Positions 3,397 to 37,311 of a stretch of DNA of 64,000 bases are shown in pieces (the first letter of the stretch is position 1; every line of letters starts with the position of its first letter). The position numbers and the translations under genes were made by a program. This DNA is from Salegentibacter salinarum (GTDB taxonomy: Bacteria > Bacteroidota > Bacteroidia > Flavobacteriales > Flavobacteriaceae): NCBI RefSeq assembly GCF_900168115.1, contig NZ_FUZC01000012.1, positions 62,001 through 126,000 on the forward strand, in the 5' to 3' direction. The notes under the pieces are model-generated. The model was not told where the DNA came from. It searched no databases and was given only the letters and a program-made list of their open reading frames with translations.

Positions 3397-3539
3397 CGAG
3401 ACCAATTCGGTGACCCCCTTCAATTACCATAAAGGGGGTCTCGATTGGCATACAAATTACTGTATTTCAAATGTTTAAGCAAAGTTAAAATTTTAGATTG
3501 TATACACTTTTTAGGTAATTTGGGTGACCAATCGAGACC
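3397..3539 (+). repeat. Cluster of integrase arm-type-like repeats at the left end
   Basis: Three related motifs lie between attL and the integrase start. They are cgagaccaattcggtgacc at 3397-3415, an inverted ggtctcgattgg at 3436-3447, and a direct ccaatcgagacc at 3528-3539, the last preceded by ggtga. The first 19-mer recurs exactly near the right end at 46070-46088. Short repeats of both orientations next to a tyrosine integrase are typical of arm-type or accessory-factor sites. That role is inference. Confidence 0.6.
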
Positions 3540-3555
3540 TAAAATTTCAAAAATT

Positions 3556-21007: not shown

Positions 21008-21532
21008 ATGGCGAAATCAAGACTACAATTAAAAGCAAGTACGGCAAAGCGGTTCCGGGAGTTTTCTAAGAAAAACAATGGCAACCAGTCGGAAACCTTA
21101 GACCTGGTCCTGGACTTTTTTGAGCAAAATAACCTCTCTCCTTTTGAAACTTTAGTGCCCTCAAAAGTGAGCCTGGAACAACTGATTAAAAAAAGGATCG
21201 ATGCCGTGATCGCCATCCTTAAAAATATTGAGAAGACCCAGACCAAACCGAGCTTGTTAATGCTGGAGTTACTGATGGAAGGGCGATCGGTTCCAAAACT
21301 TCAAGTGGCCAAAAAAGAAAAGGGTTCTGTTTCGGATAAAAAAAGCCAAGCACAATTGGAATTGGAAATTTCCAGGCTTCAGGAGGAATTGAAAACTAAC
21401 AAAAGAGATCTGGAGTACCTCATTCAAAATGTGGAAATAAAGAGTAGCGCCTTTGGCCCAGATTATCTAAAGCTCAATATTCCCCGGTCTGAGTTGGCGC
21501 ATTATAAAATAGTTATTAAGCAAAAGAACTAA
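21008..21532 (+). CDS. BfmA/BtgA family mobilisation protein
   Basis: The 174-residue protein has an N-terminal small DNA-binding-like region (AKRFREFSKKNNGNQSETLDLVLDFF, about 14-40), a helical middle with LLMLELLMEGRSV, and a C-terminal coiled coil (about 110-150, SQAQLELEISRLQEELKTNKRDLEYL). This matches the accessory mobilisation proteins that precede relaxase genes in Bacteroidetes mobilisable elements. They help the relaxase find and nick oriT. Its stop codon overlaps the start of the next gene (TAATG). The candidate oriT lies upstream. Confidence 0.8.
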   Translation: MAKSRLQLKASTAKRFREFSKKNNGNQSETLDLVLDFFEQNNLSPFETLVPSKVSLEQLIKKRIDAVIAILKNIEKTQTKPSLLMLELLMEGRSVPKLQVAKKEKGSVSDKKSQAQLELEISRLQEELKTNKRDLEYLIQNVEIKSSAFGPDYLKLNIPRSELAHYKIVIKQKN

Positions 21533-22557
21533 TGTATATCAGTATCTCTCCTCAGAAAACCGGTGCCGCTTTTTCCAAAAGTGCAGGGGATTTTGTGAGC
21601 TATCTGGAAAAAGAAAACGAGGGAAAAAGCCCGATGGAAAAGGAATATTTCTTTAATCAGTATGATGATAATATAAAACCTTACGAAGTGATTAAAGGAA
21701 TTGATGACAATACTGCAAAATTAAAAACCAAAGAACCCAAATATTACTCGATCACTATGAGCCCAAGCCAGTACGAATTAAAACACATTCGTAATAATCC
21801 TGAAAAGCTAAAGGCTTTTGTTCGGGAAGCGATGAAAGAATATGCCGGCTCCTTCAATCGTGAGATAAACGGCAGGCCTGTGGGTGTTGACGACATTAAA
21901 TATTACGCCAAAGTTGAATATGAGCGAACTTATAAAAGTAACGATGTAGCTATTCGTGAAAACAAACCCTACAGCAAGCAGATCGCCCACTTGAAAAATG
22001 AACTTCGGAAGGTGCAACGTGGGGAAATTTATGGAAACACCCGGCAAATTGAAAATGAAATTCAAAAGCTGGTCAGGGATGCTCCTTATAAAATTCGAGG
22101 ACAGGTGATGGAATCTGGAATGAAAAAAGAAGGGCTGCAAAGCCATATTCATATCATCGTTAGCAGAAAAGATGCTTCTAATACCTACAGCCTTTCCCCT
22201 GGCAGTAAATACAAAGCTTCAGAAGTGAACATGCACGGTAAAGTTGTAATGAGGGGATTTGAGCGGGATCGTTTCTTTCAGAATTCCGAAAAGGCTTTTG
22301 ACAAAATGTTTCGATACAACCGAAATTATGTAGAGAGCTATGCTGCTAAAAAGATGCTGAGTAAGGATCCAAAACAATATTTTTTAGGCTTAAGAAACCT
22401 GGGGATCAATGAGAAAAAGATTGCCTTTAAAATGATCCGACAAGCGGGCTTGCAATTACCCATATTAAACCTGCCTACTAGTAAAGTAGGCTTCGCCTAT
22501 AAACAATTAAAAAAAGTCATCGAAGCCGGAATTAAATCAAGTTCTATCGGTTACTAA
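21532..22557 (+). CDS. DUF5712-like mobilisation relaxase
   Basis: The 341-residue protein resembles the DUF5712 mobilisation family of Bacteroidetes elements. The start MYISISPQKTGAAFSKSAG is followed by DFVSYLEKEN, YSITMSPSQYELKHI (about 72-86) and the His pair in SHIHIIVSRKD (His205, His207), then LSPGSK, MRGFERDRFFQNSEKAFDKMF. The His-x-His with hydrophobic flanks is the likely metal site of a relaxase. The nucleophilic Tyr is not assigned. It is coupled to the BfmA-like gene. The element lacks visible tra genes, so it would need helper conjugation functions. Confidence 0.8.
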   Translation: MYISISPQKTGAAFSKSAGDFVSYLEKENEGKSPMEKEYFFNQYDDNIKPYEVIKGIDDNTAKLKTKEPKYYSITMSPSQYELKHIRNNPEKLKAFVREAMKEYAGSFNREINGRPVGVDDIKYYAKVEYERTYKSNDVAIRENKPYSKQIAHLKNELRKVQRGEIYGNTRQIENEIQKLVRDAPYKIRGQVMESGMKKEGLQSHIHIIVSRKDASNTYSLSPGSKYKASEVNMHGKVVMRGFERDRFFQNSEKAFDKMFRYNRNYVESYAAKKMLSKDPKQYFLGLRNLGINEKKIAFKMIRQAGLQLPILNLPTSKVGFAYKQLKKVIEAGIKSSSIGY

Positions 22558-22669
22558 ATTTACCTGTTATGCTATCAAATATTTTTTTTTGGAGCAAGAT
22601 CTGGAATTGAATTGTCCCAAAAGATATGAGGAAGCAAAAGCCATATAAAAACCTAAGAACATAGAAGAC

Positions 22670-23206
22670 ATGAGCGAAGTCAATTACATTAGTCACTTAA
22701 ACGGAGTATTGCGGAAATTCGCTGAGGATGACAAGATCTCGTGCTCACACCGCAGTTTATACCTGGTCTTTTTTGAATTATGGAACCACAAGCGTTTTCC
22801 TATAACAATTATGCTTAACAGTAGGGAGGTGATGGCACTAGCTAAAATACGTTCCAGGACAACCTACCACAAATTACTTCGGGACCTAACAAACTGGGGA
22901 TATCTTAAATACCATCCCTCCACTAGTCCGCAAATGGGATCCCTCGTGGAGATGTTCAGATTTGATACACATCCTGTTCAAAAAATGAACAGGACTTATC
23001 CAGTTTCTGAACAGGTACCTGTCCAAAAATTGGTATCTTTTAAACCTCCAGGAGATAAAAGCATTTATTTTAATAATTTGCATTATTCTTGCTGTCAATT
23101 TTTATTTTCAATTAGAAAGAATTGTCTGATTGAGTTTGATTACAGGCTCTTGTTGACTGCACTTGTTGAAAAAATTGGTTTATACGTATTTATCCTACTG
23201 ATTTAA
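22670..23206 (+). CDS. Winged-helix protein of mobile-element type
   Basis: The 178-residue protein has an N-terminal half (SHLNGVLRKFAEDDKISCSHRSLYLVFFELWNH, VMALAKIRSRTTYHKLLRDLTNWGYLKYHPS) that matches a winged-helix family often found beside mobilisation genes in Bacteroidetes elements and annotated as transcriptional regulator. The C-terminal 50 residues (after LVSFKPPGDKS) look unlike the family and hydrophobic at the end, which suggests a frameshifted or replaced tail. It lies 112 bases after the relaxase gene. Function in copy or transfer control is inferred. Confidence 0.6.
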   Translation: MSEVNYISHLNGVLRKFAEDDKISCSHRSLYLVFFELWNHKRFPITIMLNSREVMALAKIRSRTTYHKLLRDLTNWGYLKYHPSTSPQMGSLVEMFRFDTHPVQKMNRTYPVSEQVPVQKLVSFKPPGDKSIYFNNLHYSCCQFLFSIRKNCLIEFDYRLLLTALVEKIGLYVFILLI

Positions 23207-23423: not shown

Positions 23424-24356
23424 TCAATAAGTAACATCTTCAAAATCAGATTGAGCCTTTTTGAATTGTGTTTCCCACTCGTCTGTCCATCCAAAGGCTT
23501 TTTCAGCCTGTGCTTGTAAATTGGTTTTCGCTGCCCCACTCCAAAAATGAATAAACTCACCCATATTCATTCTTCTGGCAAAAGCTTTATCATTGTCTTT
23601 TTTAGGAAAATGCTCATACAACAAGTCATAGAAACTTTTCAAAACCTCAGACTCCCCATAATTAGAGTAAATTGGAAAAAACCAATCTTTAAACCATTGT
23701 GTATTTTCCTGGGGGAAATCATCATAGGTCCCCATCATATCATCATAAGTTTGTTGAGCAAACTCTTCATCTCCCACTCCTTTATAAACATCGTAGATAA
23801 ATATTTCTGCCCATTTACTATCTTTCCAAATTTCCCAGGCTGGATTTTCTTTAACCCCATTAGTAGCACCTTCTACAATGTGACCAATCTCATGAATTAC
23901 CATACTTAAACCTGCTTCCGGTTTTCTTTCTTTCCAATCATAAGGCCCACAATCTACGACATTCCTATAGTCGTGACTTTCATCCATATAAACTGAAGGA
24001 TGGCCGCCGGAGTATTTTCCGGTATGAAAAATAGCGTAAAGCCTGGGATCATCTCCAAAATCTCCATAAACATTTTTAACATAAACCCAAACCTTGTCCA
24101 AATACTCTTTAGGCCAAGTAATTGTAGTGTCTACATCTTCGTCGTAATAAACTGCCAGATCATCAGTGTAATGTATTCGGGTGAGCAATTGCTCATGATC
24201 AAACCAATGTTCCTGCCAGGTCTCAGGTGGAGTATCATTATTTGCCTCTACCGTATTTTTTTCTTGATTTACCGTTTTGGAACTATTTCCTGAATTACAA
24301 GAGGAAAAAAGTCCTATTGTGATAGCTAGTACAAATAAAATTAGTTTGATTTTCAT
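23424..24356 (-). CDS. Secreted zinc-metallopeptidase-like lipoprotein (HEIGH)
   Basis: The 310-residue protein has lipobox FSSC (Cys20) and a gluzincin motif VIHEIGHIVEG (His155, Glu156, His159). The flanking sequence (LAVYYDEDVDTTITWP, YGDFGDDPRLYAIFH, NTQWFKDWFFPIYSNYGE, NMGEFIHFWSGAA) is shared with residues 60-300 of the protein encoded at 30349-32163, where the HExxH is lost. I cannot name the peptidase family with certainty. It is last in block B, its start overlapping the stop of a broken peptidase gene. A role in cleaving mannoproteins to expose glycans is plausible but inferred. Confidence 0.75.
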   Translation of the reverse strand: MKIKLILFVLAITIGLFSSCNSGNSSKTVNQEKNTVEANNDTPPETWQEHWFDHEQLLTRIHYTDDLAVYYDEDVDTTITWPKEYLDKVWVYVKNVYGDFGDDPRLYAIFHTGKYSGGHPSVYMDESHDYRNVVDCGPYDWKERKPEAGLSMVIHEIGHIVEGATNGVKENPAWEIWKDSKWAEIFIYDVYKGVGDEEFAQQTYDDMMGTYDDFPQENTQWFKDWFFPIYSNYGESEVLKSFYDLLYEHFPKKDNDKAFARRMNMGEFIHFWSGAAKTNLQAQAEKAFGWTDEWETQFKKAQSDFEDVTY

Positions 24357-24863
24357 AGTTTAAATTTGAGGGTTTTTCCTATACACTTTCTATAATTATA
24401 AAGACTTTCACCCGTCTTTTCTTTCCTTATATTTACTTTATAAGTAGCTTTTCTCCTGATTTTATCTAAGATTACTACAAAACCATTATTCCAAGCTAAA
24501 AAATGAGCAGTGATCCTGTAGATATTTTTATAATATTGTTTCGCTGAATATTCTGGCAAAGACCCAGTCCCTTCATTAGCAAATGTTAACTTAAAGCGAA
24601 CGTAATCGGCGATTCCTTCGGTAAACACCCTAAGCTACTATTGAAAGGGTATAAATGGATAATATGCAAAGATTCGTGGGTAACAACATCTATATCGTTT
24701 GGTTTATTCTTTAACCAACCAGAGGTACTTCGGGCTGCATCATTGGTAAAAATTAGTGTTTTACCAATCTTTTAAAAGTTTCAAACTGTTGTGCATTTGC
24801 TGAAAAGCTCAAGGAACTTAAAAGTATTAAACACCAGGTCATTTTCACGTTCTTTAAATTCAT
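24353..24863 (-). pseudogene. Broken BSP-family (plant/bacterial basic secretory type) peptidase
   Basis: Starting at ATG 24863 (MNLKNVKMTWCLILLSSLSF, signal peptide), the frame stops after about 36 codons. A second frame continues KTLIFTNDAARSTSGWLKN and VVTHESLHIIHLYPF, which contains the HExxH of the BSP (pfam04450-type) peptidases. A further frameshift leads into FTEGIADYVRFKL and ITAHFLAWN, the diagnostic C-terminal half of that family, ending at 24353. At least two frameshifts are needed to read through, so the gene is inactive unless sequencing errors are present. It lies at the head of the metallopeptidase unit, downstream of a LacI-type operator and a leader hairpin. Confidence 0.75.
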
Positions 24864-24889
24864 TCAAATAGTTATTATAATTTTAAAAA

Positions 24890-24962
24890 AGTGGAGGCGT
24901 ATTTAAACAGGCTAATCAAAAATTTAAAATGAAAAACATAATTTTTTCTTTTCGCCTCCACT
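24890..24962 (-). promoter_or_regulatory. Leader hairpin with terminator-like tail
   Basis: On the minus strand AGTGGAGGCG (24962-24953) pairs perfectly with CGCCTCCACT (24899-24890) across a 53-base AT-rich loop, and TTTTTT follows. It lies between the operator at 24998-25017 and the broken peptidase start at 24863. It may be an attenuator of the peptidase unit or the end of a short RNA of about 75-100 bases. Confidence 0.5.
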
Positions 24963-24997
24963 ACTAATTTAAAAGTAAAATACTTACCTCACCAATA

Positions 24998-25017
24998 TAC
25001 TAAAACGATTTAGTTTA
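24998..25017. promoter_or_regulatory. LacI-type operator, copy 1
   Basis: The sequence tactaaaacgatttagttta is identical over 20 bases to 37364-37383 upstream of the second susC. The core CTAAAACGATTTAG is a near-palindrome with a central CG, the usual form of LacI-family operators. It lies upstream of the peptidase unit (minus strand). Confidence 0.7.
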
Positions 25018-25157
25018 AAAAAATATTAACGAATTCCTTTAAAATTTTAACATATTTATTATTATCCTTAAATTCTAATTTCTCTATGAACCCAACACTA
25101 ATACTTCAAGCAGCTCCTTTCTAGTATTATTAAGATATGGATATTGACAAATTAGAT

Positions 25158-27449
25158 TCAATCTTCACTTTTACTTAAAGAAAACGGTCTGGATTCTTCT
25201 GAAATACCCCTATTTTTATTAGGGCTATCGTCCATTTGAAATTCTAATCTCCCTCCATTAAAAATTTGATCGTAAGTAAGAAAGTTCTTTCCAAATTCCT
25301 CCCCATTTAAAGAAGCCGATTGGATATAGACATTTTCTTTATTGTTATTCTTAGCCCTAATTACAAAGGATTCCCCATTCTCCAAATTGATGGTGGATTT
25401 TTCAAAAATAGGGCTACCAATCACATACTCGTAAGTTCCGGGAGCTACACTATAAAAGCCAAGTGCACTAAGCACATACCAGGAAGAAGTTTGCCCCTGG
25501 TCTTCATCGCCGGGATAACCATTCTCTGTATAACTATACAAGTTTTCCATAACTTCCCTAGCCTTCTGTTGTGCCTTCCAGGGTTGGCCGGCATAATTAT
25601 AAAGATAAATCATATGCTGAATTGGCTGATTTCCGTGGGCATATTGGCCCATATCGGCCATTTGCATTTCGGTCATTTCGTGAATTTTTCCGCCGTAGGT
25701 CCCCACATTTACTTTATTGGAAACATTGAAAACCGAATCCATTTTAGCCGTAAAGCGTTCATCCCCTCCCATTAAATCAATAAGTCCTTTCGGGTCCTGA
25801 AAAACTGACCACAGGTAATGCCACGCATTTCCTTCCGTAAAAGGGCCGCCCCATTCATAAGGATCAAAATTTTCTACCCATTCTCCATTTTTCTTTCTTC
25901 CACGCATAAAACCGGTTTTTTTATCAAAAACATTTTTATAGTTATACATATGGCGGGAAAATATTTCTTCATAGAATTCGTTTCCTGAATCTTTCGCCAG
26001 TTTATAGGCACAAAAATCATCATATGCATATTCTAAAGTTTTTGCAGTACCTTCTCTTACCTCTGGATAAGGAACATAACCCAGGGTAAAATATTCTTTC
26101 CAACCTTCACGACCATTCGCAGGTCCCCACGGACCTTTATTGGTTGCCTCATGGAAATAGGCATCAAGCGCTTTATCTGGGTCAAAAGTTCTGAGTCCTT
26201 TTGCCCAGGCATCGGCAAGAAGAGAAATGGCGTGATTCCCAACCATACTTCCAGCTTCACTGGGGAAAGACCAGGAAGGAAGCCAGCCACATTGTTCATA
26301 AGCATCTAACAAAGCAGCCACATAACGGCCGTGCATCTTGGGCGAAAGAATGGCGTTTAAAGGAAATTGACCGCGGAAAGTATCCCAAAAACCAGTATCG
26401 GTATACATATATCCTTCATGAATTTTTCCATCATAAGGACTGTAATAATAAGGTTCTCCCTTCTCATTTATTTCGTAAAACTTTCTGGAAAATAAGCTCG
26501 CTCTAAAAAAACAGGAATAAAAGGTTTTAAACTGTTCTTCTGTGCCGCCTTCTACCTCTATCTTTCCTAATTGTTTATTCCATATTTCACCTGCATTTTT
26601 CTTTGTTTGCTCAAGGTTTCTATCTTTACCCAACTCATTTTCCAGGGTAACCTGAGCCTGTTCTTTACTAATGTAGGAAGATGCTACCTTAGCCTGAACT
26701 ATTATCCCTCTTTTAAATTCCAGATACGCTCCTATTCCTTTACCTTCCCGAGTAGTCTCTCCTTCCCATTTCTTTCCATTTTTATTTTCCCAGGTTCCGT
26801 AGGCTTTAAAAGGTTTATCAAACTGAATTACAAAATAATTTCTAAAATTATCAAAACGTTGCATTCCACGACCATTTCTAACATATCCGGTAATTCTTCG
26901 ATTCTTTTTATCAATTTCCACTCCGCTTAATCCAGTATATCCATCTAAAACTAGATAAGAGGATTTCTCCTTTGGAAAATCAAAACGAAGGTGAGCCCCG
27001 CGTTCGGTGGGTGCGATTTCAGTTTTTATTCCGTTCTCCAGCTTTACCATATAATAATTGGGTTTGGCAGTTTCATTATCGTGGCTAAATTTAGTAGAAC
27101 GTTCATCTTCCATTAATTTTAATTCTCCAACAACCGGCATTAAGGAAAATACAGCATAGTCATTAGACCAGGAGCTACACTGATGCGCCTGTTGAAAACC
27201 TCGTATTTCATCTTTAAAATATTGATATTTCCAGCCATCACCATTTACCCCGGTTTGCGGGGTCCAGGTGTTCATCCCAAATGGCAGGGCTGTAGTGGGA
27301 TAAGTATTACCACGGGTAAGTTCAAATTTTGAATTCGTTCCCTGCAAAGTATTCACATATTCTACAAGCTCCTTTGCTGGATTGATATTCTGTGCAGGAA
27401 GACTAAACGAAATTAAAATAAGGCTTATTAAAAATAGATTTTTGTTCAT
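25158..27449 (-). CDS. GH92 exo-alpha-mannosidase (copy B)
   Basis: The 763-residue protein has a cleavable signal peptide (…SFSLPAQN) and is therefore probably periplasmic. The N-terminal beta-sandwich (RGNTYPTTALPFGMNTWTPQTG, QQAHQCSSWSNDY) and the (alpha/alpha)6 barrel carry FTEGNAWHY (Glu539, aligned with the catalytic acid), HGNQPIQHMIYLYNYAGQPW and GYPGDEDQGQTSSWY (Asp648 and Asp650). The Glu-to-Asp spacing of 109-111 residues matches what I recall for BT3990. It is the third gene after the terminator in block B, 19 bases after the 58-residue membrane-protein gene. All catalytic motifs are intact. Linkage specificity is not assigned. Confidence 0.92.
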   Translation of the reverse strand: MNKNLFLISLILISFSLPAQNINPAKELVEYVNTLQGTNSKFELTRGNTYPTTALPFGMNTWTPQTGVNGDGWKYQYFKDEIRGFQQAHQCSSWSNDYAVFSLMPVVGELKLMEDERSTKFSHDNETAKPNYYMVKLENGIKTEIAPTERGAHLRFDFPKEKSSYLVLDGYTGLSGVEIDKKNRRITGYVRNGRGMQRFDNFRNYFVIQFDKPFKAYGTWENKNGKKWEGETTREGKGIGAYLEFKRGIIVQAKVASSYISKEQAQVTLENELGKDRNLEQTKKNAGEIWNKQLGKIEVEGGTEEQFKTFYSCFFRASLFSRKFYEINEKGEPYYYSPYDGKIHEGYMYTDTGFWDTFRGQFPLNAILSPKMHGRYVAALLDAYEQCGWLPSWSFPSEAGSMVGNHAISLLADAWAKGLRTFDPDKALDAYFHEATNKGPWGPANGREGWKEYFTLGYVPYPEVREGTAKTLEYAYDDFCAYKLAKDSGNEFYEEIFSRHMYNYKNVFDKKTGFMRGRKKNGEWVENFDPYEWGGPFTEGNAWHYLWSVFQDPKGLIDLMGGDERFTAKMDSVFNVSNKVNVGTYGGKIHEMTEMQMADMGQYAHGNQPIQHMIYLYNYAGQPWKAQQKAREVMENLYSYTENGYPGDEDQGQTSSWYVLSALGFYSVAPGTYEYVIGSPIFEKSTINLENGESFVIRAKNNNKENVYIQSASLNGEEFGKNFLTYDQIFNGGRLEFQMDDSPNKNRGISEESRPFSLSKSED

Positions 27450-27468
27450 TTTGGGTAGGGATATTAAT

Positions 27469-27645
27469 TTAATTAATAGGAGCTTCTATAACTCCTGAAT
27501 CTGTTTCCATTGTGGTTAACAAGAAAAATGTAACAACAAAGAAGATTAAAAATAGGAGGGAACTAATCCAAAACCTTTTATTCTTTAGCACCAGACCGGT
27601 TACTACCAGGAGAGCTAACAGTATTATTATTAAAATCAGGACCAT
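27469..27645 (-). CDS. 58-residue two-helix membrane protein
   Basis: Starting at ATG 27645 and ending with TAA at 27469-27471, this frame encodes MVLILIIILLALLVVTGLVL, then a basic loop KNKR, a second helix WISSLLFLIFFVVTFFLL and a short acidic tail. It fits exactly between the glycosidase-like gene (24 bases away) and the GH92 gene (19 bases), which suggests a true operon member. It resembles no family I can name. A role in anchoring or in membrane stress is speculation. Confidence 0.65.
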   Translation of the reverse strand: MVLILIIILLALLVVTGLVLKNKRFWISSLLFLIFFVVTFFLLTTMETDSGVIEAPIN

Positions 27646-27669
27646 GAAAATTGTGATTCTTGAGTACAG

Positions 27670-29895
27670 CTACCAGGAAATATTAACTTTCACACCATCT
27701 GGGGCATTCTCAAACTTCAGGTATTGTGTAGAAGAATTTTCATCCCATTCCGATTCTGGTTGATTTATATCTTCGCCTTCGGAATCTACTAATTGAATAT
27801 TTTTAGGTTCTTGGGGAAGCAAAATCCGCATACTATTGACAGTGTTTTTTGGACTTTTGCAGATAAAACTGTACCTATTATCGTTATTTTCTTCTTCATA
27901 AACCCGGGAAGCTGAAGCCAAAACCTGAGGTTTTAATTGCTCTACCACTTTATTTATATTAAACAGCAAGGCTTGCTGTCCCGGTTTAATAGTTTTATTA
28001 TAGATCACAGGTAATTCAGGATCAAATAGATCAATATATGTACCTTCTACTTCAAAATTATCCCTACTAATACTTTCATCCATTACCGCAACAATTTCGT
28101 AATTTCCCCGCTTTAAGTGAAGGTTATTCTTAAGTTCCAGTTTTCCTGCGAAAGCATCCTTTTCATAGGCATGTTTAACTACATCAAGGTAAGTAACATC
28201 AGAATTTGATTCCAATACAAATTCTTTAGGATTTTGTGTAATAAAATGTACCACTCCATCACCAACATTATACATATTTTCCTCCGCGCTTTTTTCTATT
28301 TCCAACTCTTCTAATAAATGCTGAGAGGGTTTTTCGAAACTATAATTACCGGAATTCCACCATTCCCTAACAGTTTGGTAAGGATCATCGTCCCGGCCGG
28401 CATAGACCAGAACCCCTCCGCTTTTTACCCAATTAGAAATTCTTTCATGTACCTCAGGACCTTCGGGTTTCATATTGGAATAACTCATCACGAGCACCTT
28501 TATATTTTCTAAAGTTGCATCAAAAGATAAATTCTCCATATGTACTGTTTCTACTGGAATTCCTCGTTTTAACAAGGGAAGGGTTTGTCCGTAAAAATTG
28601 GAGAATTTAGGATCTTCAAAACCATCGTGGGTGGGAAAACGCTGGAACATTAATGAATTTCCCATTAAAACGCCTATTCCATGGCTACCGCTCACTTGAT
28701 TTTCAGATTCTGGCATATGATTTAAAGCATTTATCATTACCTGCATTTGAGTCGCATATTTTTCGGGTATTAAAACCTCTTCATCACTTCCTTCTACACT
28801 GTAGGGCCTTGTGTATATTCTTTCAGGCCAAGGCATAACTTCATAATTAGCTACCATTGGATATAAAAGTTTAGCGACAAAAGTTGCCTGGTAATTTTTC
28901 TTATAATCATCCCAGCTTTTTTTACGATCTTCAATGGGATCCGTCAAAAAGAACAATTTACGGTTGGTTGGGGCCGTCATAGAAACCATTGAACCATATT
29001 CCAGAAAAGCATTCTCAAAAGTTCGTTCTTTCTCCTCTCCATTAAAATAAGTAGGCTCTCTTGAAGTTCCTGTCCAAACCTGTGCAATATACCCATCGAT
29101 TCCGGGGAGGGCAGCTAAACTTGCTTCAGGACTTACAATTTGCCAGGAAGAATAGTTGACCAGGGAATGGGTAGGCACATATACTTTAATATCCATCCCT
29201 TTTTCTTTTCCATATTTTTTGGCATAAGAAGAAACTTTATCTACAGCTTCATAATATAATTGATATTTAAGCTTGTTGGAAAGCCAGGTATTTTCCGGAG
29301 ATTCGTGTTGAGGTTTCCATTCTTCATCATAATAGTCCTCCCAGGCTTTTTTAAAAGCACTACTGTAGCCTGCACGGGCCCAAAACTCAGGTTCTTCAAG
29401 GTATAGCGAAGATATTCCTGCATCTATAACTCTTTCAATTACCTCCTCTTTCATATATTCAATAAAGGGCTCGGTAGGAACAATATATGGCACATTATGA
29501 CCGTGCCAGATGGTATCACCGTTTTTCTGAACCTGACCTTCACCAAGGTGATTTTCGCCATCCCATTCCCCCAGAAAATATTCCTGGTAAGAACCCCAGG
29601 CAATACCAGTCATAAAATGAGTATTGTAACCTCTCTCCCGCCAGGATTCTACCCTGTCTTCAAAAGTTATTTCCTGCTCCCCGTCTGTGGGATTTCCATG
29701 CACACCATAAACTATGGCCACATCTGCCCGAACATCAATTTCGGGCATCCATTCACTGCTGGTTTGAAAGGCTGTTTTTGCTTTTGAGTTTTCGTATTTT
29801 TTATCTTCTGAAGGTTTTCCCCCTTCTTTTTCGTAGCAACTAAAAAAAGTAACGCAAACTAAGCTTAGCAAAAGATAGATTTTCAGATTATTCAT
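27670..29895 (-). CDS. Large lipoprotein with glycosidase-like architecture, unrecognised family
   Basis: The 741-residue protein has lipobox FFSC (Cys20). An N-terminal segment (about 55-420) looks like a TIM barrel: AIVYGVHG, FMTGIAWGSYQEYF, ISSLYLEEPEFWARAG (Glu167, Glu168, Glu170, candidate catalytic acids), IKVYVPTHS, YIAQVWTGTS. A middle segment (about 440-560; VLMGNSLMFQRF, KVLVMSYSNMKPEGPEVHERISNWVKSGGVLVYAG) resembles the glutaminase-like trimerisation domain of GH42-type enzymes, followed by C-terminal beta-sandwich sequence. I cannot place it in a known GH family. It starts the GH92-B transcription unit, so an accessory glycosidase for mannoprotein glycans is likely. The alternative is a non-catalytic binding protein. 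Confidence 0.65.
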   Translation of the reverse strand: MNNLKIYLLLSLVCVTFFSCYEKEGGKPSEDKKYENSKAKTAFQTSSEWMPEIDVRADVAIVYGVHGNPTDGEQEITFEDRVESWRERGYNTHFMTGIAWGSYQEYFLGEWDGENHLGEGQVQKNGDTIWHGHNVPYIVPTEPFIEYMKEEVIERVIDAGISSLYLEEPEFWARAGYSSAFKKAWEDYYDEEWKPQHESPENTWLSNKLKYQLYYEAVDKVSSYAKKYGKEKGMDIKVYVPTHSLVNYSSWQIVSPEASLAALPGIDGYIAQVWTGTSREPTYFNGEEKERTFENAFLEYGSMVSMTAPTNRKLFFLTDPIEDRKKSWDDYKKNYQATFVAKLLYPMVANYEVMPWPERIYTRPYSVEGSDEEVLIPEKYATQMQVMINALNHMPESENQVSGSHGIGVLMGNSLMFQRFPTHDGFEDPKFSNFYGQTLPLLKRGIPVETVHMENLSFDATLENIKVLVMSYSNMKPEGPEVHERISNWVKSGGVLVYAGRDDDPYQTVREWWNSGNYSFEKPSQHLLEELEIEKSAEENMYNVGDGVVHFITQNPKEFVLESNSDVTYLDVVKHAYEKDAFAGKLELKNNLHLKRGNYEIVAVMDESISRDNFEVEGTYIDLFDPELPVIYNKTIKPGQQALLFNINKVVEQLKPQVLASASRVYEEENNDNRYSFICKSPKNTVNSMRILLPQEPKNIQLVDSEGEDINQPESEWDENSSTQYLKFENAPDGVKVNISW

Positions 29896-30280
29896 ATTAT
29901 TTTTGCTTTATTTATTTAAATTCATTTTACGGGGAAAGACTTAATGTCTTGGAACCAAATTGTGGCATTGATAGGCTAATTAAAACAGTTTGGCTTTACC
30001 AATTTATTAATATGCCTAAAGTTGTTTGAACGTATCTCTTCCTTTAATTTAGCTCATTTTGAGACTGGCATTAAAAAATAAAACATAATTATTAGCCTAC
30101 AAACTACACTGTTATAGTTGTTGAAGTTTCGACGTTTCAAGTAGTATTATTGGAACCGGTTTGGCGGTTTATTCCAAGCGAGAGTGTAGTAATATACTAG
30201 GTATTATCATAGGTTAATTTAAATTCTGAATTCATTCTCTGTAAAATGTACTCATAATTGACTAATTCCATTTAGTGATC
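29896..30280. other. Gene-free promoter region of the glycosidase/GH92-B unit
   Basis: About 385 bases between the start at 29895 and the terminator at 30281. It presumably holds the promoter of the 741-residue lipoprotein gene. An AACCGGTT palindrome at about 30153-30160 within ttggaaccggtttgg is the only regulatory-looking sequence I see. No copy of the CTAAAACGATTTAG operator is present here. Confidence 0.45.
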
Positions 30281-30324
30281 GAAAAATAAAAAACAACTAT
30301 TCCGGGTGTATAGACCACCCGAAA
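30281..30324 (-). terminator. Intrinsic terminator after the inactive peptidase gene
   Basis: The arms ttccgggtg (30300-30308) and cacccgaaa (30316-30324) pair with one wobble, and on the minus strand a T-rich tract follows (A-run 30283-30293 region). It separates susC-susD-binding protein from the next transcription unit. Confidence 0.75.
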
Positions 30325-30348
30325 TAGATGCATTAAATAAGCTTTATT

Positions 30349-32163
30349 TTATTCTATACCCAGAATGCGCCATTCACTTAGTTGCATGGCACCACCACTA
30401 CTAATTGCAGTCACATGGAAGCGATAGTATTTATAGGCAGTTTCATTATCTACCAAAAATTCTTTAGTCTGGTTTCGCTCACTAAATGTCTGCTCCTCCC
30501 GAGTATCTAGAACAACCCATGATTCTCCATTGTTAGATCCAAGAATCTCCCAATTTTTGGGATCTCTTTCTGGAGAATCATTCCCAGAAGTTAGGGTATA
30601 TTTAGTAATTATTTTAGCCTCCGGTAATTCCTGTTGTGCATAAAACTCGGAAGTATACCCACCTAAAAAGAATTTGGTGTTCACATCATTATCTATCAGT
30701 TTTAATGAGCCTTCAGGACCGTCAGGGCCTGAGCCATTTTCCTGATTTACCGAAAGTATTGCATTTTCAGTAAAATCTTTAGGACCAAAGTCTAATAGCT
30801 GTAAATTAAGCAGTCTCCATTCACTTACCTGAATCAAGCTACTGCCATTATTGTCAAGAACATTTATTCTGTAATACAGGTAAGCATTGGAATTGTCAAA
30901 ATTATATTCACGTGTTTGGTTACGCTCTGTCCAAGATTGATCCGTTCGAGTATCAATTACTTCCCAGGTAATTCCGTCATTAGACCCAAGCAGTTCCCAG
31001 CTTTTCATATCCCTGTCCGGAGCATCGTTTCCAGAAGTAATTGTATATTTATTAGCTACTTTAGCGTCAGTAAAATTCTGTTGCATCCAGAAATCCTGAG
31101 GAAATCCTCCTGTTAAGAATTTACTATTCACATCGTTATCAATAAGTTTTAAAGATCCTTCGTTGGCTTCTGCTCCTCCATCATTATCCTTACTTACACT
31201 TACTGTAGCTTCTGAGGTTAAATCTATAAGCTCTGAAGCTGGTTCAAAAGGATAATTCAAATTAGGAAATTCTGCCCTTGCTTGTAGCAGTTCATCATTA
31301 TATCCATCGTTCCATTCAAAGGCAGCTTCTGCCATAGGTAAGAGATCCTCTCCTGTAGCAGCACTCCAAAAATGAATAAATTCACCCATATTCATATCCT
31401 TGGAGTATTCGCTTCCATCTATAGGATAGTTTTGAGAAAGTACTTCAAAAAAGTTACTTACAGTATTAGCTCCATTATAAGTCTCATAAATAGGAAGAAA
31501 CCAGTCCTTAAACCACTGGGTACCAGGATTAGGAAAATCATCAACATCATTCAAATATTCCTGTTTTACTCTACTAGCCTCGTTATCCATGCCTAATTTT
31601 CTATACAGGTCAAATATAAATATTTGGGAAAACTTATCCTTCCAAACAGCCTTGGCAGGAGATTTAAAAACACCATTAGCCGACATCTGAACAACATCTG
31701 CCATTAAGCGCAGAGGCTCATCTAATACCGCTCCAGTTGAATCTGCAGGAACTGTAAAATCAATAAGGCTATGGGAATCTTGCTGATCAAAAACAGTGGT
31801 ATAAATACCTTCACTTGACTCTCCATGTCCCACAACATAAAGTGCGCTTTCATTTCCAAAATCGCCATAAATATCAGTAACTTCATTCCAAGCGGAACTA
31901 AAGAAATTAAATGGCCAGGTAATGGAACGATCTACAACAGTGTCATAATATACCCCTACATAATCATCAAAATACTGTCTCCTAACCGCGTGATCATGGC
32001 TCTGATAATTTTCTACAAAGCCACGAGGAGGTGCTCCTGGTGGATCATTATTAACCTCAGCATCAGGCAAGCCTTCAATCGCCGAAGTAGATTCTGGTGT
32101 ACAAGAATAGATCAATCCTGACATAATTGTAATCACCAATATTTTAAAAGTATGTTTTTTCAT
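30349..32163 (-). CDS. Inactive metallopeptidase-like protein with two F5/8C-type domains
   Basis: The 604-residue protein has lipobox IYSC (Cys21). Residues about 50-300 are homologous to the HEIGH peptidase at 23424-24356 (shared YDDYVGVYYD, ITWP, YGDFG, GTQWFKDWFLPIYE, MNMGEFIHFWSAA), but the metal site reads RLMADVVQMSANGV, with no HExxH. Two tandem repeats follow (about 310-455 and 460-604) with LIDNDVNSKF, YTITSGNDAPDRD, SWELLGSNDGITW, VSEWRLL, the pattern of F5/8 type C (discoidin, CBM32-like) domains. The gene is 157 bases after susD. It is best read as a surface glycan-binding protein built on a dead peptidase. Confidence 0.85.
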   Translation of the reverse strand: MKKHTFKILVITIMSGLIYSCTPESTSAIEGLPDAEVNNDPPGAPPRGFVENYQSHDHAVRRQYFDDYVGVYYDTVVDRSITWPFNFFSSAWNEVTDIYGDFGNESALYVVGHGESSEGIYTTVFDQQDSHSLIDFTVPADSTGAVLDEPLRLMADVVQMSANGVFKSPAKAVWKDKFSQIFIFDLYRKLGMDNEASRVKQEYLNDVDDFPNPGTQWFKDWFLPIYETYNGANTVSNFFEVLSQNYPIDGSEYSKDMNMGEFIHFWSAATGEDLLPMAEAAFEWNDGYNDELLQARAEFPNLNYPFEPASELIDLTSEATVSVSKDNDGGAEANEGSLKLIDNDVNSKFLTGGFPQDFWMQQNFTDAKVANKYTITSGNDAPDRDMKSWELLGSNDGITWEVIDTRTDQSWTERNQTREYNFDNSNAYLYYRINVLDNNGSSLIQVSEWRLLNLQLLDFGPKDFTENAILSVNQENGSGPDGPEGSLKLIDNDVNTKFFLGGYTSEFYAQQELPEAKIITKYTLTSGNDSPERDPKNWEILGSNNGESWVVLDTREEQTFSERNQTKEFLVDNETAYKYYRFHVTAISSGGAMQLSEWRILGIE

Positions 32164-32320: not shown

Positions 32321-34114
32321 CTACCACCCTGGATTTTGAATCAGTTTTGGATTTGCATTTATCTCGTCTTGGGGAATTGGCCATAGATAATCTTGTGGAC
32401 GAAAAACCCTTTTTTCAAAAACAACCGTATTATAAAATTCTTGCTCATCTCTGGCATTAACGTCTTTTCCGTGCATATCTCCACCAAAGGCGTCCTCAGC
32501 AATTTTCCAACGGCGTGCATCAAAATAACGAACATTCTCAACAAAAAGTTCAATACGTCTTTCTTTATGAATTGCTTCTCTTACAGCATCTTGTCCTGAG
32601 GGCGCGGGAAGGTCAACATCTCCATATTCAGGTATTCCAGCTCGCTCACGAATAAGATTAACATACTTCAGAATATCTGGATTTCCAGGATCGTATTCGT
32701 TTAAAGCCTCAGCATAATCTAAATAAATTTCTGCCAGACGCATATATGGAAGACTCCTAGCGCCATAATCTTCGGCAGCTTTTTTACGAACAATATACCC
32801 TGTTGGTGGGTAATCATTAGTTCCAGCTTGAATGCCTGAATTCCCACTATACCAGGTTGTTGTAACAATGTCACCAAAATTTCGATTTAACCAAAGTCGA
32901 TTATTGTAGGTTACACCTGCATAAAAGCGGGGCTCCCTATTGGTCCAAGGATTAAAGGTTGTTCTTGGTGCGAAATCGTCAGGCGCTTGAAAATCAGAAA
33001 ATCCGCTATCTCGGTAACCTGATTGAGGATCGTCTATAGATCTACCACTATTGGTAAAAAATGCGTCTACCATTTCTTGAGTAACACTAAGTCCTCCAGC
33101 ACCAGTGGGTGAATTACCAGCCACTCCAATATGTAAAGGTGTTACATCATATTGATATGAATTATTCCCTCTAGGTATTGCATAAATAATTTCAACATTA
33201 AAATCTTCTAATGTGCTATTTTTAACTGAGAGGAATGGATTTAAACTTCCATCATTATTAAATTCCTTATAAAGCTCAAACGAACTAGGTACAAATTTAT
33301 CGATAAATGCTTTTGCAGCATCAGCTGCCTTTTTCCATTTTTGTTGATCATAGCTTTGAGGTACTAAGTTATTCCCCTCTGAATCTATTAAATCTGAATA
33401 ATCAGAATTACCATTATAAAGTGGACTTGCAGCAAAAAGCAATGTTTTTTCTTTAATAGCCATCGCAAAAGGTGTACTCATACGCCCCGCATTTTGGCCA
33501 TCAAAATTCACTCCATCTAGAGCTTCAGCTCCTTTATCTAACTCTGATACTATATAGTTAGTTACAGCATCTATACTATTTCTTTCTAAGCCCAACTCAT
33601 CTAAATTGGCATTAGTTGGAACAACTGTTTCCGGCATTAGAAGAATAGGTCCCCAGCTACGCATTAAATTGTAATAATAAAACGCTCGTAAAATACGTGC
33701 TTCAGCTGCGTATTGTTCTTTTATATCTGCAGAGCAGTTTTGACATTGATCAATACTGTTAATCAAGGTAGTAGATGCTCGTATCCCTCTATAAAAATTT
33801 GACCATAGATTACTCACATTTTGAGTAGTTGCATTCCAATCGGCAATGTTTAAATTATTACCCATATGGAAACCCCATACGTATTCAGCTTCATCTGAAG
33901 CTCCAGTCCATGGACCTGAATTCGCACTAGTAGTATACCGTTGACTAAACTCATTCGGAAATCGTGAATAAATATTAGCCAAATACCCCCTCACAGTATT
34001 TTGTTTAGAAAAAGTCTCATCGAAAGTTAAACGATCATCGGGAACCTGATCCAGATAATCATCGCTGCAGGAGAGCATCATTAAGCCACAACATAAAATT
34101 ATTATTTTTTTCAT
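32321..34114 (-). CDS. susD: SusD/RagB family nutrient-binding lipoprotein (block B)
   Basis: The 597-residue protein has lipobox MLSC (Cys16), followed by SDDYLDQVPDDRLTFDETF. SusD motifs are ILRAFYYYNLMRSWGPILLMPE, YMRLAEIYLDYAEALNEYD and ERRIELFVENVRYFDARRW; the end is KLIQNPGW. It is longer than the block A copy (522) with extra loops in the middle. The gene is 41 bases after susC of the same pair. It should present a second class of glycan, perhaps the more complex mannoprotein chains handled by the GH92 and peptidase genes below. Confidence 0.95.
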   Translation of the reverse strand: MKKIIILCCGLMMLSCSDDYLDQVPDDRLTFDETFSKQNTVRGYLANIYSRFPNEFSQRYTTSANSGPWTGASDEAEYVWGFHMGNNLNIADWNATTQNVSNLWSNFYRGIRASTTLINSIDQCQNCSADIKEQYAAEARILRAFYYYNLMRSWGPILLMPETVVPTNANLDELGLERNSIDAVTNYIVSELDKGAEALDGVNFDGQNAGRMSTPFAMAIKEKTLLFAASPLYNGNSDYSDLIDSEGNNLVPQSYDQQKWKKAADAAKAFIDKFVPSSFELYKEFNNDGSLNPFLSVKNSTLEDFNVEIIYAIPRGNNSYQYDVTPLHIGVAGNSPTGAGGLSVTQEMVDAFFTNSGRSIDDPQSGYRDSGFSDFQAPDDFAPRTTFNPWTNREPRFYAGVTYNNRLWLNRNFGDIVTTTWYSGNSGIQAGTNDYPPTGYIVRKKAAEDYGARSLPYMRLAEIYLDYAEALNEYDPGNPDILKYVNLIRERAGIPEYGDVDLPAPSGQDAVREAIHKERRIELFVENVRYFDARRWKIAEDAFGGDMHGKDVNARDEQEFYNTVVFEKRVFRPQDYLWPIPQDEINANPKLIQNPGW

Positions 34115-34155: not shown

Positions 34156-37100
34156 TTAAAATTGTATGGTTCCGCCTAAAGCAATTACAGATATATTGGG
34201 ATAACGACTACCGTTACTTGTATTCAACTCAGGATCCCAAAGATCAAAATCCGTTATCGTAAATACATTTGTAGCTCGGAGGTAAACCCTAAAGTTATTA
34301 ACACCCACATATTTGGTCAGCGTTTCAGGAAGATTATAGCCCAATTCTGCAGATTTTAATCTGAAAAATGCAATGTCTCGCAACCAATAAGTACTCAACT
34401 GCGTATTGTTACCCTGCCCAATTGCTGATTGTCCATAAGATAATCTGGGAGTGGTCGCATTGGGATCATTATTTTCGGGTGTCCATCGGTCATTTACTAT
34501 AGCATATGTACTACCTTCCCCACCATCACCGGTAAATGGCTGTACTCCATAACCTCCTATATAACGATCTGCAAACTCTTGCCCCTGAAAAAACATACTG
34601 AGATCAAAACCTTTAAATTGACCTGTAATTCCAGCACCGTAGGTTAAAGCAGGAACATCTCCATCACCGATAACCTTACGATCGAAGGCATCTATTTGAC
34701 CATCTTCATTAAGATCTACGTATTTAATATCACCAGGTTGTATTTGACCGTATTGCGTAGGAAAACCATCTTCGGTTGTAATAAAACCGTCTCCATTTAT
34801 ATCGTCTTCAAGAGTAAAAAGTCCATCAGCAACCAAGCCTCTGTTAGCGAGCAAACCATAACCTTTATCATTTAACCAAGGATGAGGTTGCCTAGGTTGA
34901 CCGCTCTGTATAATTTCATTTCTATTATAAGAAAATGTACCTCTAAAACCTAAGCGAAATTCTTGACCTATTGTAGTATTATAGTTAATTGTACCATCAA
35001 AACCTTTATTATTCACAACCCCAATATTTGCTGAAGGGTCAGAATTTAATCCTATATAGTTAGGAATATCTCTACGGTTTAAGAATGCACCTGTGGTATG
35101 TTCTTTAAAAAAGTCAACAATCACTCTAAGATCGTTATTGAAAGCATTAAATTCAATTCCTAAATCCTGTTTACGAGAAGTAGCCCAGGTAACGTCAGCA
35201 CCATAGAAAGTTTCTTGAATTCCTCCAATACCTCCAGGATTTTCACCATAAGAATAACCAGGTTGACCCTCTTCTACCCTACTTAAAAAAGCAAAACGAC
35301 CAGCTCCAGAATCAGAACCTACTTCACCATCAGAATACCGTATCTTAAAATAATTAATAGTATTTGAGATTGGCTCAAAGAATTTTTCATTAGAGAGTAC
35401 CCAACCAACAGCAAAAGACGGAAAGAAACCATATCGATTTTCTGGAGCAAATTTCTCAGAACCGTTATAACCGGCATTCACTTCCATAAAGTAACGTTCG
35501 TCATAAGAATAAGTAGCTCGGCCGGCCAAACCTTGATTTCTATACGGAATAGCATCGGTAAAATTACCAGCGAAATTATCTGAGAAATCTGATCGATTTG
35601 CCAAAAGCAAGCCACTCACATTGTGTTTTCCAAATTCACGATCGTAATTAAGAGAAGCTTGAAGATAAGTTCTCTTATTACCACCATTTGATCTATCATA
35701 TCCCAAAAAGTTTTGACCGGTAAAAGTTTCGTTCAACAGCAATGAGCCATCTTCGTTATAAGGGAAATTAGAATCTACAAAAAACGTGCTTTCTCGTTTG
35801 CCTCGGTTTATATCTTGTTCGTTATAGGTATCAAACCCAAACAAACCATGAAAAGACAAGCCCTTAACAATAGAACCCAATTCTTGGGTAATATCAAGGT
35901 TTGTATTAAGTTTATTACGGGTTAAAGATCGATAACCTCTTAAAGCAACCTCAGCATAAGGGTTACGCAAACCTCCGTTAACACTTCTACCAGGAACATA
36001 GCCTCCCGGATAAATTTTAGGATATACTACAGGGTTTGCCTCTAAAGCCGTTCCAAATATCGCATCTACACCACTAGAAGGATAATCTCCTTCAGAAAGG
36101 TATCCCTGGATCCCAACATTGACCTGTGTAGTCTTAGTAATATCCAGAGTCAAGTTTGAGGTGAAATTATAACGTTTAAAGCGAGTATCTGAATCGTAGT
36201 TTTCAAGTCCATCGGTTACAAAAAGACCGGTTTCATCATAATACCCCATTGATACATAATATCGAGCTCTTTCAGCCCCACCACTAACATTGAGTAAGGC
36301 TTTTCTATTTCGCCCAAAATCTCTAAATACTTCGTCCAGCCAATTTACATTAGGATATAACAAAGGGTCTTCGCCACTGGCCGTTCTGTCGATATAGTCT
36401 TGCGAATAGAGGGGAACCTGACCTCTGGTGGTTCTGGCTTCATTAGCTAAATTCATATACTCAATACCGCTAGTGAGCTCAGGCACTTGTGTGAAATAAG
36501 TAATACCCTCAAAATAATCAAGACTTATTTCTGGCTTTCCTATTTCACCTCTTTTCGTTTGAATAAGGATAACTCCATTCGCCCCACGAACACCGTAGAC
36601 CGCTGTCGCCGAAGCATCTTTTAGTACGGTAAAGGAGTCAATATCTCGAGGATCGATATTATCTAAGGAACGTTCTATACCATCTACGAGAACAAGTGGT
36701 CCTGAACCTCCAAAAGTAGAAATACCACGTATCCAAAGATCTGCCCCATCAAAACCAGGCAGTCCTGATCGTTGCACCCCTGTAAGACCAGCAACACGTC
36801 CTGCCAACTGAGTTCCTAAATTAGCGACAGGCAATTCGAGCTCCTCGGCCTTCACCGTAGATTGCGCCCCCACTACACTTATTTTCTTTTGCTTTCCATA
36901 TCCAACTAGTACCACCTGATCTAAAGCTTGAGGATCATTTTCAAGCGCTACATTTATAGTAGTCTCCCCCTCCACAGCTCTTTCCAATGTCTGCATTCCC
37001 ACATAAGAAAATATTAAAACAGCATTTTGAGGTGCAACATCAATTGAGTAATTCCCATCAAAATCAGTCATCACCCCGTTAGTAGTACTTTTTTCAAGCA

Positions 37101-37311
37101 CATTTACTCCCGGTAGAGGCAGCCCCATATTATCTGTTACCGAACCGGTAACCGTAATTGTATTGTCTTCCTGTTGCTGAAAAGCCAGAGCATCCAAATC
37201 ACTACCAATGTAGAAAATTAAAGTAAAGACAAGAAGTTGAGTAAACTTTTTTGTTGTGACTCCAGTCTTACATTTAATTAATGTAAGATCCCATATCATT
37301 TGTATTTTCAT
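34156..37311 (-). CDS. susC: SusC/RagA family TonB-dependent transporter (block B)
   Basis: The 1051-residue protein starts at ATG 37311 with a long, weakly typical leader (MKIQMIWDLTLIKCKTGVTT) before the hydrophobic segment LLVFTLIFYIGS; a start at Met5 is possible. It has a carboxypeptidase-regulatory-like domain (about 50-125; TNGVMTDFDGNYSIDV), a plug beginning LDQVVLVGYGKQKK (about 130) with SFTVLKDASATAVYGVRGANGVILIQTK, and a barrel ending ALGGTIQF. It is only distantly similar to the block A copy, so the two pairs are not a recent duplication. Its promoter region holds the LacI-type operator at 37364-37383, 53 bases upstream. Confidence 0.94.
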   Translation of the reverse strand: MKIQMIWDLTLIKCKTGVTTKKFTQLLVFTLIFYIGSDLDALAFQQQEDNTITVTGSVTDNMGLPLPGVNVLEKSTTNGVMTDFDGNYSIDVAPQNAVLIFSYVGMQTLERAVEGETTINVALENDPQALDQVVLVGYGKQKKISVVGAQSTVKAEELELPVANLGTQLAGRVAGLTGVQRSGLPGFDGADLWIRGISTFGGSGPLVLVDGIERSLDNIDPRDIDSFTVLKDASATAVYGVRGANGVILIQTKRGEIGKPEISLDYFEGITYFTQVPELTSGIEYMNLANEARTTRGQVPLYSQDYIDRTASGEDPLLYPNVNWLDEVFRDFGRNRKALLNVSGGAERARYYVSMGYYDETGLFVTDGLENYDSDTRFKRYNFTSNLTLDITKTTQVNVGIQGYLSEGDYPSSGVDAIFGTALEANPVVYPKIYPGGYVPGRSVNGGLRNPYAEVALRGYRSLTRNKLNTNLDITQELGSIVKGLSFHGLFGFDTYNEQDINRGKRESTFFVDSNFPYNEDGSLLLNETFTGQNFLGYDRSNGGNKRTYLQASLNYDREFGKHNVSGLLLANRSDFSDNFAGNFTDAIPYRNQGLAGRATYSYDERYFMEVNAGYNGSEKFAPENRYGFFPSFAVGWVLSNEKFFEPISNTINYFKIRYSDGEVGSDSGAGRFAFLSRVEEGQPGYSYGENPGGIGGIQETFYGADVTWATSRKQDLGIEFNAFNNDLRVIVDFFKEHTTGAFLNRRDIPNYIGLNSDPSANIGVVNNKGFDGTINYNTTIGQEFRLGFRGTFSYNRNEIIQSGQPRQPHPWLNDKGYGLLANRGLVADGLFTLEDDINGDGFITTEDGFPTQYGQIQPGDIKYVDLNEDGQIDAFDRKVIGDGDVPALTYGAGITGQFKGFDLSMFFQGQEFADRYIGGYGVQPFTGDGGEGSTYAIVNDRWTPENNDPNATTPRLSYGQSAIGQGNNTQLSTYWLRDIAFFRLKSAELGYNLPETLTKYVGVNNFRVYLRATNVFTITDFDLWDPELNTSNGSRYPNISVIALGGTIQF

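Follow-up and report, generated by a model that had tools for sequence, protein, structure and literature searches.

In a stretch of 64,000 nucleotides from Salegentibacter salinarum (assembly GCF_900168115.1, contig NZ_FUZC01000012.1, positions 62,001-126,000 of the forward strand; hereafter the window, within which all positions are counted), an intact zinc-peptidase-like lipoprotein of 310 amino acids (P310) and a 604-amino-acid lipoprotein relative that has lost the metal site (P604) are encoded in one locus. We consider it probable that P604 is a pseudo-peptidase which has been retained to bind glycans as an accessory lipoprotein of a SusC/SusD system for alpha-mannan or mannose-rich glycans.

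P310 (23424-24356; minus strand, as are all genes of the operon given below) carries a lipoprotein signal (SSC at residues 18-20) and, judging from its open reading frame (ORF) and structural model, a gluzincin-type zinc peptidase domain. In the alignment its HEIGH motif, H155-E156-I-G-H159, spans 23880-23894, while E184 (in WAEIF, 23805-23807) follows 25 residues past H159. P604 (30349-32163) is a predicted lipoprotein (YSC at residues 19-21) in which a dead peptidase domain (residues 35-304, 31252-32061), recognized by its identity to P310 and by the order of its secondary structure, is followed by two CBM32-like F5/8C domains (residues 313-456, 30796-31227, and residues 462-604, 30352-30780) that are matched by PF00754 in two stretches (5.6e-16). 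BLASTP aligns P310 with the first 304 residues of P604 at 103 identities in 308 positions (33%; 56% positive; E = 2e-59). In register with HEIGH, P604 reads R152-L153-M-A-D156-V-V-Q159, of which R152-D156 lies at 31696-31710; this overlaps the stretch quoted in the original prediction, MADVVQMSANGV, and no histidine occurs across the whole segment that matches the active-site region of P310 (VLDEPLRLMADVVQMSANGVFKSPAKAVWKDKFSQIF). The position of E184 is taken by Q180 (31624-31626). With R-L-M-A-D for HExxH and Gln for the third ligand, P604 lacks the elements of an active zinc peptidase and would be without activity. The two starting claims of the original prediction, that the 310-residue protein has HEIGH and that the 604-residue protein shares its sequence but lost the metal site, are therefore borne out. 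P310 and P604 are the only family members found by a search of this genome.

The loss is shared by a clade. When relatives were gathered by scanning GTDB contigs once and by several genome searches, five further genomes proved to hold complete or almost complete dead copies: Salegentibacter sp. oa5 (L050), Zunongwangia atlantica (L005), a metagenome-assembled genome (MAG) contig labelled Planctomycetota (L004, NYSS01000185.1) and two genomes of the window's own family (G143 and G144). Both zinc histidines are replaced in all six dead members (H155 by R/S/S/S/A/F, H159 by D/N/K/K/K/D), five have lost the catalytic Glu and four the third ligand; DSKW and GGH are gone from all, and the HDxRN motif is broken. 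Core residues Y70, W81, Y97, D135, D189, F222, W225, P228, G266, H270 and F271 are kept in every one of them. The six form one side of a tree branch with 100/100 support, and this still holds after removal of the alignment columns that surround the active-site motifs. Loss of the metal site in the dead line would be the simpler direction compared with its gain in the active ones, because active members cover several phyla while dead ones stay near one family; the root of the tree is not proven. An order-wide profile search returned no further dead member, and matches in two genomes (G100 and G576; E about 6e-4 to 9e-4 over about 100 residues) were judged to be due to chance. The Planctomycetota-labelled contig holds a Flavobacteriaceae-type operon whose SusC is 81% identical to that of Z. 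atlantica, and it is probably misbinned.

All dead-clade ORFs are intact (464-608 amino acids) after their dead domains diverged to 32-53% identity. Decay looks different in the same window, where a peptidase gene of the BSP family (PF04450), located immediately upstream of P310 (24401-24863), is broken by frameshifts and deletions (tblastn E = 5e-30 in two frames, with a sub-threshold PF04450 match); intact counterparts of that gene are present in related loci, and BSP genes lie near active members elsewhere too. As six genomes keep such copies, the dead form is, as far as these sequences tell, an old and maintained part and no accident. The same distribution excludes a pseudogene or a sequencing error as the source of P604, and a recent lineage-specific duplication is excluded by the tree, in which active and dead copies form separate deep groups.

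A different, complete metal site, an objection that the original prediction had raised against itself, is absent from the alignment of the dead clade, in which the residues that are invariant specifically in this clade (N, D, R, R, F, S, G, P and L) include no His or Cys. It is therefore extremely improbable that P604 is still an enzyme which uses another metal site or non-metal chemistry. The residues that invite this idea, H270 (kept in 6/6 dead members) and E267 (in 5/6) of the MNMGEFIHF motif, are common to active members and so look structural, while no His, Cys or Glu is invariant specifically in the dead clade, and the one such Asp lies in the N-terminal linker.

The active side of the family stands outside the current domain collections. 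No Pfam or NCBIfam model matches the N-terminal domain of either protein; PF13402 (M60) has no match in the window's genome, and neither PF13402 nor PF04450 matches P310 at E values up to 1. A PDB sequence search with the peptidase domain gave nothing meaningful, the rows for 8z4f, 3m1r and 1hu9 being at chance level, and in the open-licence literature we found neither the peptidase family nor any pseudo-peptidase in a polysaccharide utilization locus described. The predicted model of P310 (mean predicted local distance difference test score, pLDDT, 87.9, from a 15-sequence alignment) matches M1 aminopeptidases (Z up to 13.6; root-mean-square deviation 3.0 over 205 aligned residues), lugdulysin of family M30 (Z 12.9) and the M60-type O-glycopeptidase AM0627 (Z 12.1). 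P310 is thus predicted to belong to the gluzincin fold group, clan MA(E); we leave the family unnamed, since the M1, M30 and M60 scores are tied or nearly so. Within the 20 active members compared, H155, E156 and H159 are invariant, and the E184 position is Glu in 18 and Asp in 2. In the model E184 sits on the helix that follows HExxH (residues 181-193) and, by analogy to the gluzincin fold, is probably the third zinc ligand. Relatives span Bacteroidota, Actinomycetota (Amycolatopsis, Trebonia) and MAGs labelled Armatimonadetes, Clostridiales and Planctomycetota, and plasmid-borne matches occur in Streptomyces and Fischerella. The family is rare, being present in 4 of 299 genomes of a family-level sample and 3 of 395 of a phylum-level sample, the window's genome counted. 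Mucilaginibacter oryzae carries three peptidase paralogues (L015, L053, L054), two of which have Asp as third ligand and an altered GGH motif, perhaps reflecting a differently tuned site. In two Niabella genomes (L016, L017) the family members look frameshifted, near GH92 and BSP genes.

Structure prediction indicates that the change in P604 is not confined to the metal ligands. In its model (mean pLDDT 81.2), helices and strands of residues 46-298 are ordered as in P310 apart from one strand, and the possibility that the two N-terminal regions lack a structural match, which the original prediction had named as a ground for rejection, thus falls away. This likeness rests on sequence and secondary-structure order; the fold search was made with the whole P604 model and returned mostly CBM32/discoidin matches covering residues 309-604. 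P310 strand 117-121, which holds the GGHPS motif, has no counterpart in P604, where residues 118-129 have pLDDT below 50. Judging from the fold, this strand would correspond to the edge strand on the substrate side in gluzincins; with it absent or disordered, the loss would go beyond the metal site. These observations weaken the proposal of the original prediction that P604 recognizes the protein core cut by the intact enzyme. Continued recognition of peptides or glycopeptides by the dead domain, with P604 capturing the mannoprotein core which P310 cuts, would fit with the retained core fold, with the many core residues common to active and dead members, and with the occurrence of active and dead genes in the same genome in four cases and next to each other in two. 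We nonetheless regard it as unlikely: the edge strand is missing or disordered, GGH and DSKW are lost and HDxRN is broken, no clade-specific conserved substitutes appear at these places, and G143, which is a single contig, has a dead form without any active relative.

What the dead clade does conserve is the putative sugar site of its CBM32-like domains. For both F5/8C domains of P604 the best PDB match is the CBM32 of NnGH92 (7nsn; E 1.5e-34, Z 22.2), and the CBM32 of ZmpB is also among the matches. NnGH92 is an alpha-1,2-mannosidase in which mannoimidazole is seen on the N-terminal CBM32, near Glu105, Phe122, Asp148 and Arg152 (PMC10167667). Our alignment shows E105, D148 and R152 in every one of the 11 CBM32 domains that the dead clade carries, while the loop with F122 varies in length and its alignment is ambiguous; the C-terminal CBM32 of NnGH92 itself is without the Asp and Arg of this site. 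Across the dead-clade proteins three of the four sugar contacts are therefore conserved and the catalytic site is not. The original prediction took the two F5/8C domains to have been added to the dead form. They are indeed present, but such domains also occur on active relatives (L004, L005, L014 and L029), on either side of the peptidase domain, and their arrival was therefore not tied to inactivation. In a second Salegentibacter locus the slot after SusD is taken by a CBM32-bearing protein that has no peptidase domain, which we count in favour of a glycan-binding role for P604. Proteins that carry a CBM32 domain of the same type but no peptidase domain were seen right after SusD in L049 (9220-10017) and just before SusC in L010 (4278-4886).

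By analogy with its dead relatives, P604 is likely to be exposed on the cell surface. Each of the six dead members carries Ser immediately before its lipobox Cys, and in five the lipid Cys is followed by an acid-rich stretch (CESDD twice, CETDD, CEEDD and CSKDE), which resembles the surface-export signals SDDFE and C-X-K-(D/E)2 of Bacteroidetes (PMC5080379). The corresponding residues of P310, CNSGN, do not match an export signal.

The six dead genes are all linked to, and downstream of, the same SusC/SusD pair. In the window the SusD-like lipoprotein (32321-34114), which bears an export-signal-like CSDDY, lies directly upstream of P604 and has a 60-70% identical partner in the five other genomes; the SusC-like TonB-dependent transporter (34156-37311) has one at 62-69%. 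Between P604 and a GH92 alpha-mannosidase (25158-27449; PF07971, 2.5e-160) is a gene for an unclassified 741-amino-acid lipoprotein (U741; 27670-29895). The order SusC-SusD-dead-U741-GH92 is kept in G143. Salegentibacter sp. oa5 has SusC-SusD-dead, where U741 and GH92 come only later and a neighbouring locus holds the active gene; Z. atlantica and the MAG contig L004 have SusC-SusD-BSP-active-dead, G144 has SusC-SusD-BSP-dead and G297 has SusC-SusD-BSP-active. The suggestion that a peptidase was turned into a surface binding protein placed directly after SusD thus stands as far as an inactive zinc-peptidase relative, predicted to be a lipoprotein, in a SusC/SusD operon. Placement directly after SusD holds in the window and varies elsewhere, with the BSP and active genes intervening in two genomes and the BSP gene in a third. 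U741, for which Pfam, NCBIfam and PDB sequence searches gave no match, also lies beside GH92 elsewhere (65% identity in G143, 80-84% in Salegentibacter) and is possibly an unclassified enzyme of mannan loci.

The same gene orders bear on whether P604 could regulate or scaffold P310 or the BSP peptidase. Pseudopeptidases control active cousins in other systems, according to a review (PMC11266112), and the co-occurrence of both genes in four genomes, adjacent in two, is in keeping with such a role. However, G143 and G144 have no active copy, while G297 and many others have an active copy and no dead one. The dead-only state of G143, a single contig, speaks against an obligate partner role, and we judge regulation or scaffolding to be very unlikely.

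Gene content points to the substrate. The wider window contains a GH76 gene, three GH92 genes, a gene whose product weakly matches mannose-6-phosphate isomerase, and a second SusC/SusD pair, and such gene sets have been interpreted as loci for alpha-mannan or alpha-mannose-rich N-glycoprotein in marine Flavobacteriia (PMC6298971). By this analogy "mannose-rich glycan or glycoprotein" would be a fitting substrate class, while "mannoprotein core" as the specific substrate is a guess.

Based on these findings, we propose that the metal site of an old gluzincin-type paralogue was lost a single time, in some ancestor belonging to Flavobacteriaceae. P604 would be lipid-anchored at the cell surface, where its two CBM32-like domains would hold mannose-rich glycans or glycopeptides and its dead peptidase domain would serve as a spacer or docking scaffold beside SusC/SusD. 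GH92 and other mannosidases would trim the ligand held by P604, SusC/SusD would import the product, and cleavage of the protein portion of these glycoproteins would fall to the intact enzyme P310. A bolder version is that a zinc-peptidase fold became a glycoprotein receptor of SusC/SusD, with the dead domain touching the polypeptide (or docking SusC/SusD) and the CBM32 pair holding the mannose branches. If true, P604 would read both the protein and the sugar parts of a mannoprotein; we regard this as a rather unlikely, speculative extension.

Several observations weigh against a glycan-binding role for P604. After its own lipid Cys it reads CTPES, with one acidic residue, which is a weak export signal. 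In deletion experiments on NnGH92, no gain in mannan affinity could be shown to come from its CBM32s (PMC10167667), and Arg and Glu are not special to mannose-binding CBM32 domains, as the galactose site of a sialidase CBM32 uses both. BT1284, a comparable dead paralogue, showed no measurable glycan binding (PMC11180146), and binding by P604 therefore cannot be assumed. Finally, the dead domain diverges faster than SusC and SusD (32-53% versus 60-81% identity), which could reflect weak constraint on that domain. The last point, which puts the dead domain among the faster-evolving components of this operon, together with the strict conservation of the CBM contact residues, also agrees with the view that the dead domain is a relic with no role of its own, carried along with useful CBM32 domains. 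We find this quite unlikely, given that six intact domains with an invariant core show no truncation after deep divergence; if a domain of 270 residues were useless and drifting, some members should have deleted or broken it.

The proposed pseudo-peptidase has counterparts in known systems, none of which combines its features. BT1284, a GH18-like protein of a Bacteroidales high-mannose N-glycan locus, lacks catalytic residues and showed no activity, with homologues in at least 20 species (PMC11180146). Like P604, BT1284 and the GH18-like protein of B. faecium are dead paralogues that share a SusC/SusD locus for mannose-rich glycans with their active enzyme (PMC11180146), and both groups are conserved across species with substrate-binding residues altered too; unlike P604, the GH18-like proteins are dead glycosidases, and no CBM32 pair is reported for them. 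The CBM32 of NnGH92 (7nsn; PMC10167667) differs from those of P604 in being attached to an active GH92. M60-like (PF13402) peptidases with CBM32, such as ZmpB of C. perfringens and BT4244 (PMC3267712), likewise combine a zinc peptidase with CBM32 in a glycoprotein setting, and the related AM0627 resembles P310 in structure (Z 12.1). They differ in that no Pfam family covers P310, whose model is matched just as well by M1 and M30 peptidases, and in that P604 is dead. Metallopeptidase pseudoenzymes such as ADAM2, FtsHi and CPXM resemble P604 in that the fold is kept while metal ligands and the general base are substituted (PMC11266112); a search of that review's text for M60 and for "Bacteroid-" gave no hits, and none of its cases is tied to a glycan-uptake operon.

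The surface glycan-binding lipoproteins of the SusE/SusF type are, as P604 is, encoded after SusD. P604 is distinguished from them by its build of a dead peptidase and CBM32 domains, and its surface location is a prediction.

Elsewhere in the window, a tyrosine integrase (3445-4818, plus strand) and a DUF5712 protein with two small neighbours (21008-23206, plus strand), the DUF5712 product being presumably relaxase-like, frame a second mannan gene set with mannose-6-phosphate-isomerase-like, GH76, SusC/SusD, GH92, MFS, ROK and GntR genes, and this framed block may be a mobile element. A GH78-type alpha-L-rhamnosidase gene (42825-45515, plus strand) is close to the mannan genes.

Overall, these data describe a maintained pseudo-peptidase in a glycan-uptake operon, beside an intact relative from a family outside Pfam and NCBIfam. 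Because P310-type and BSP peptidases share an operon with SusC/SusD, our results suggest that some mannose-rich-glycan loci process glycoproteins, the protein part included. Because one locus holds an active and a dead form of a single fold, it offers a clean test of whether dead enzymes serve as receptors. Taken with the GH18-like case of gut Bacteroidales, the parallel hints that such loci may have a general habit of keeping dead paralogues.

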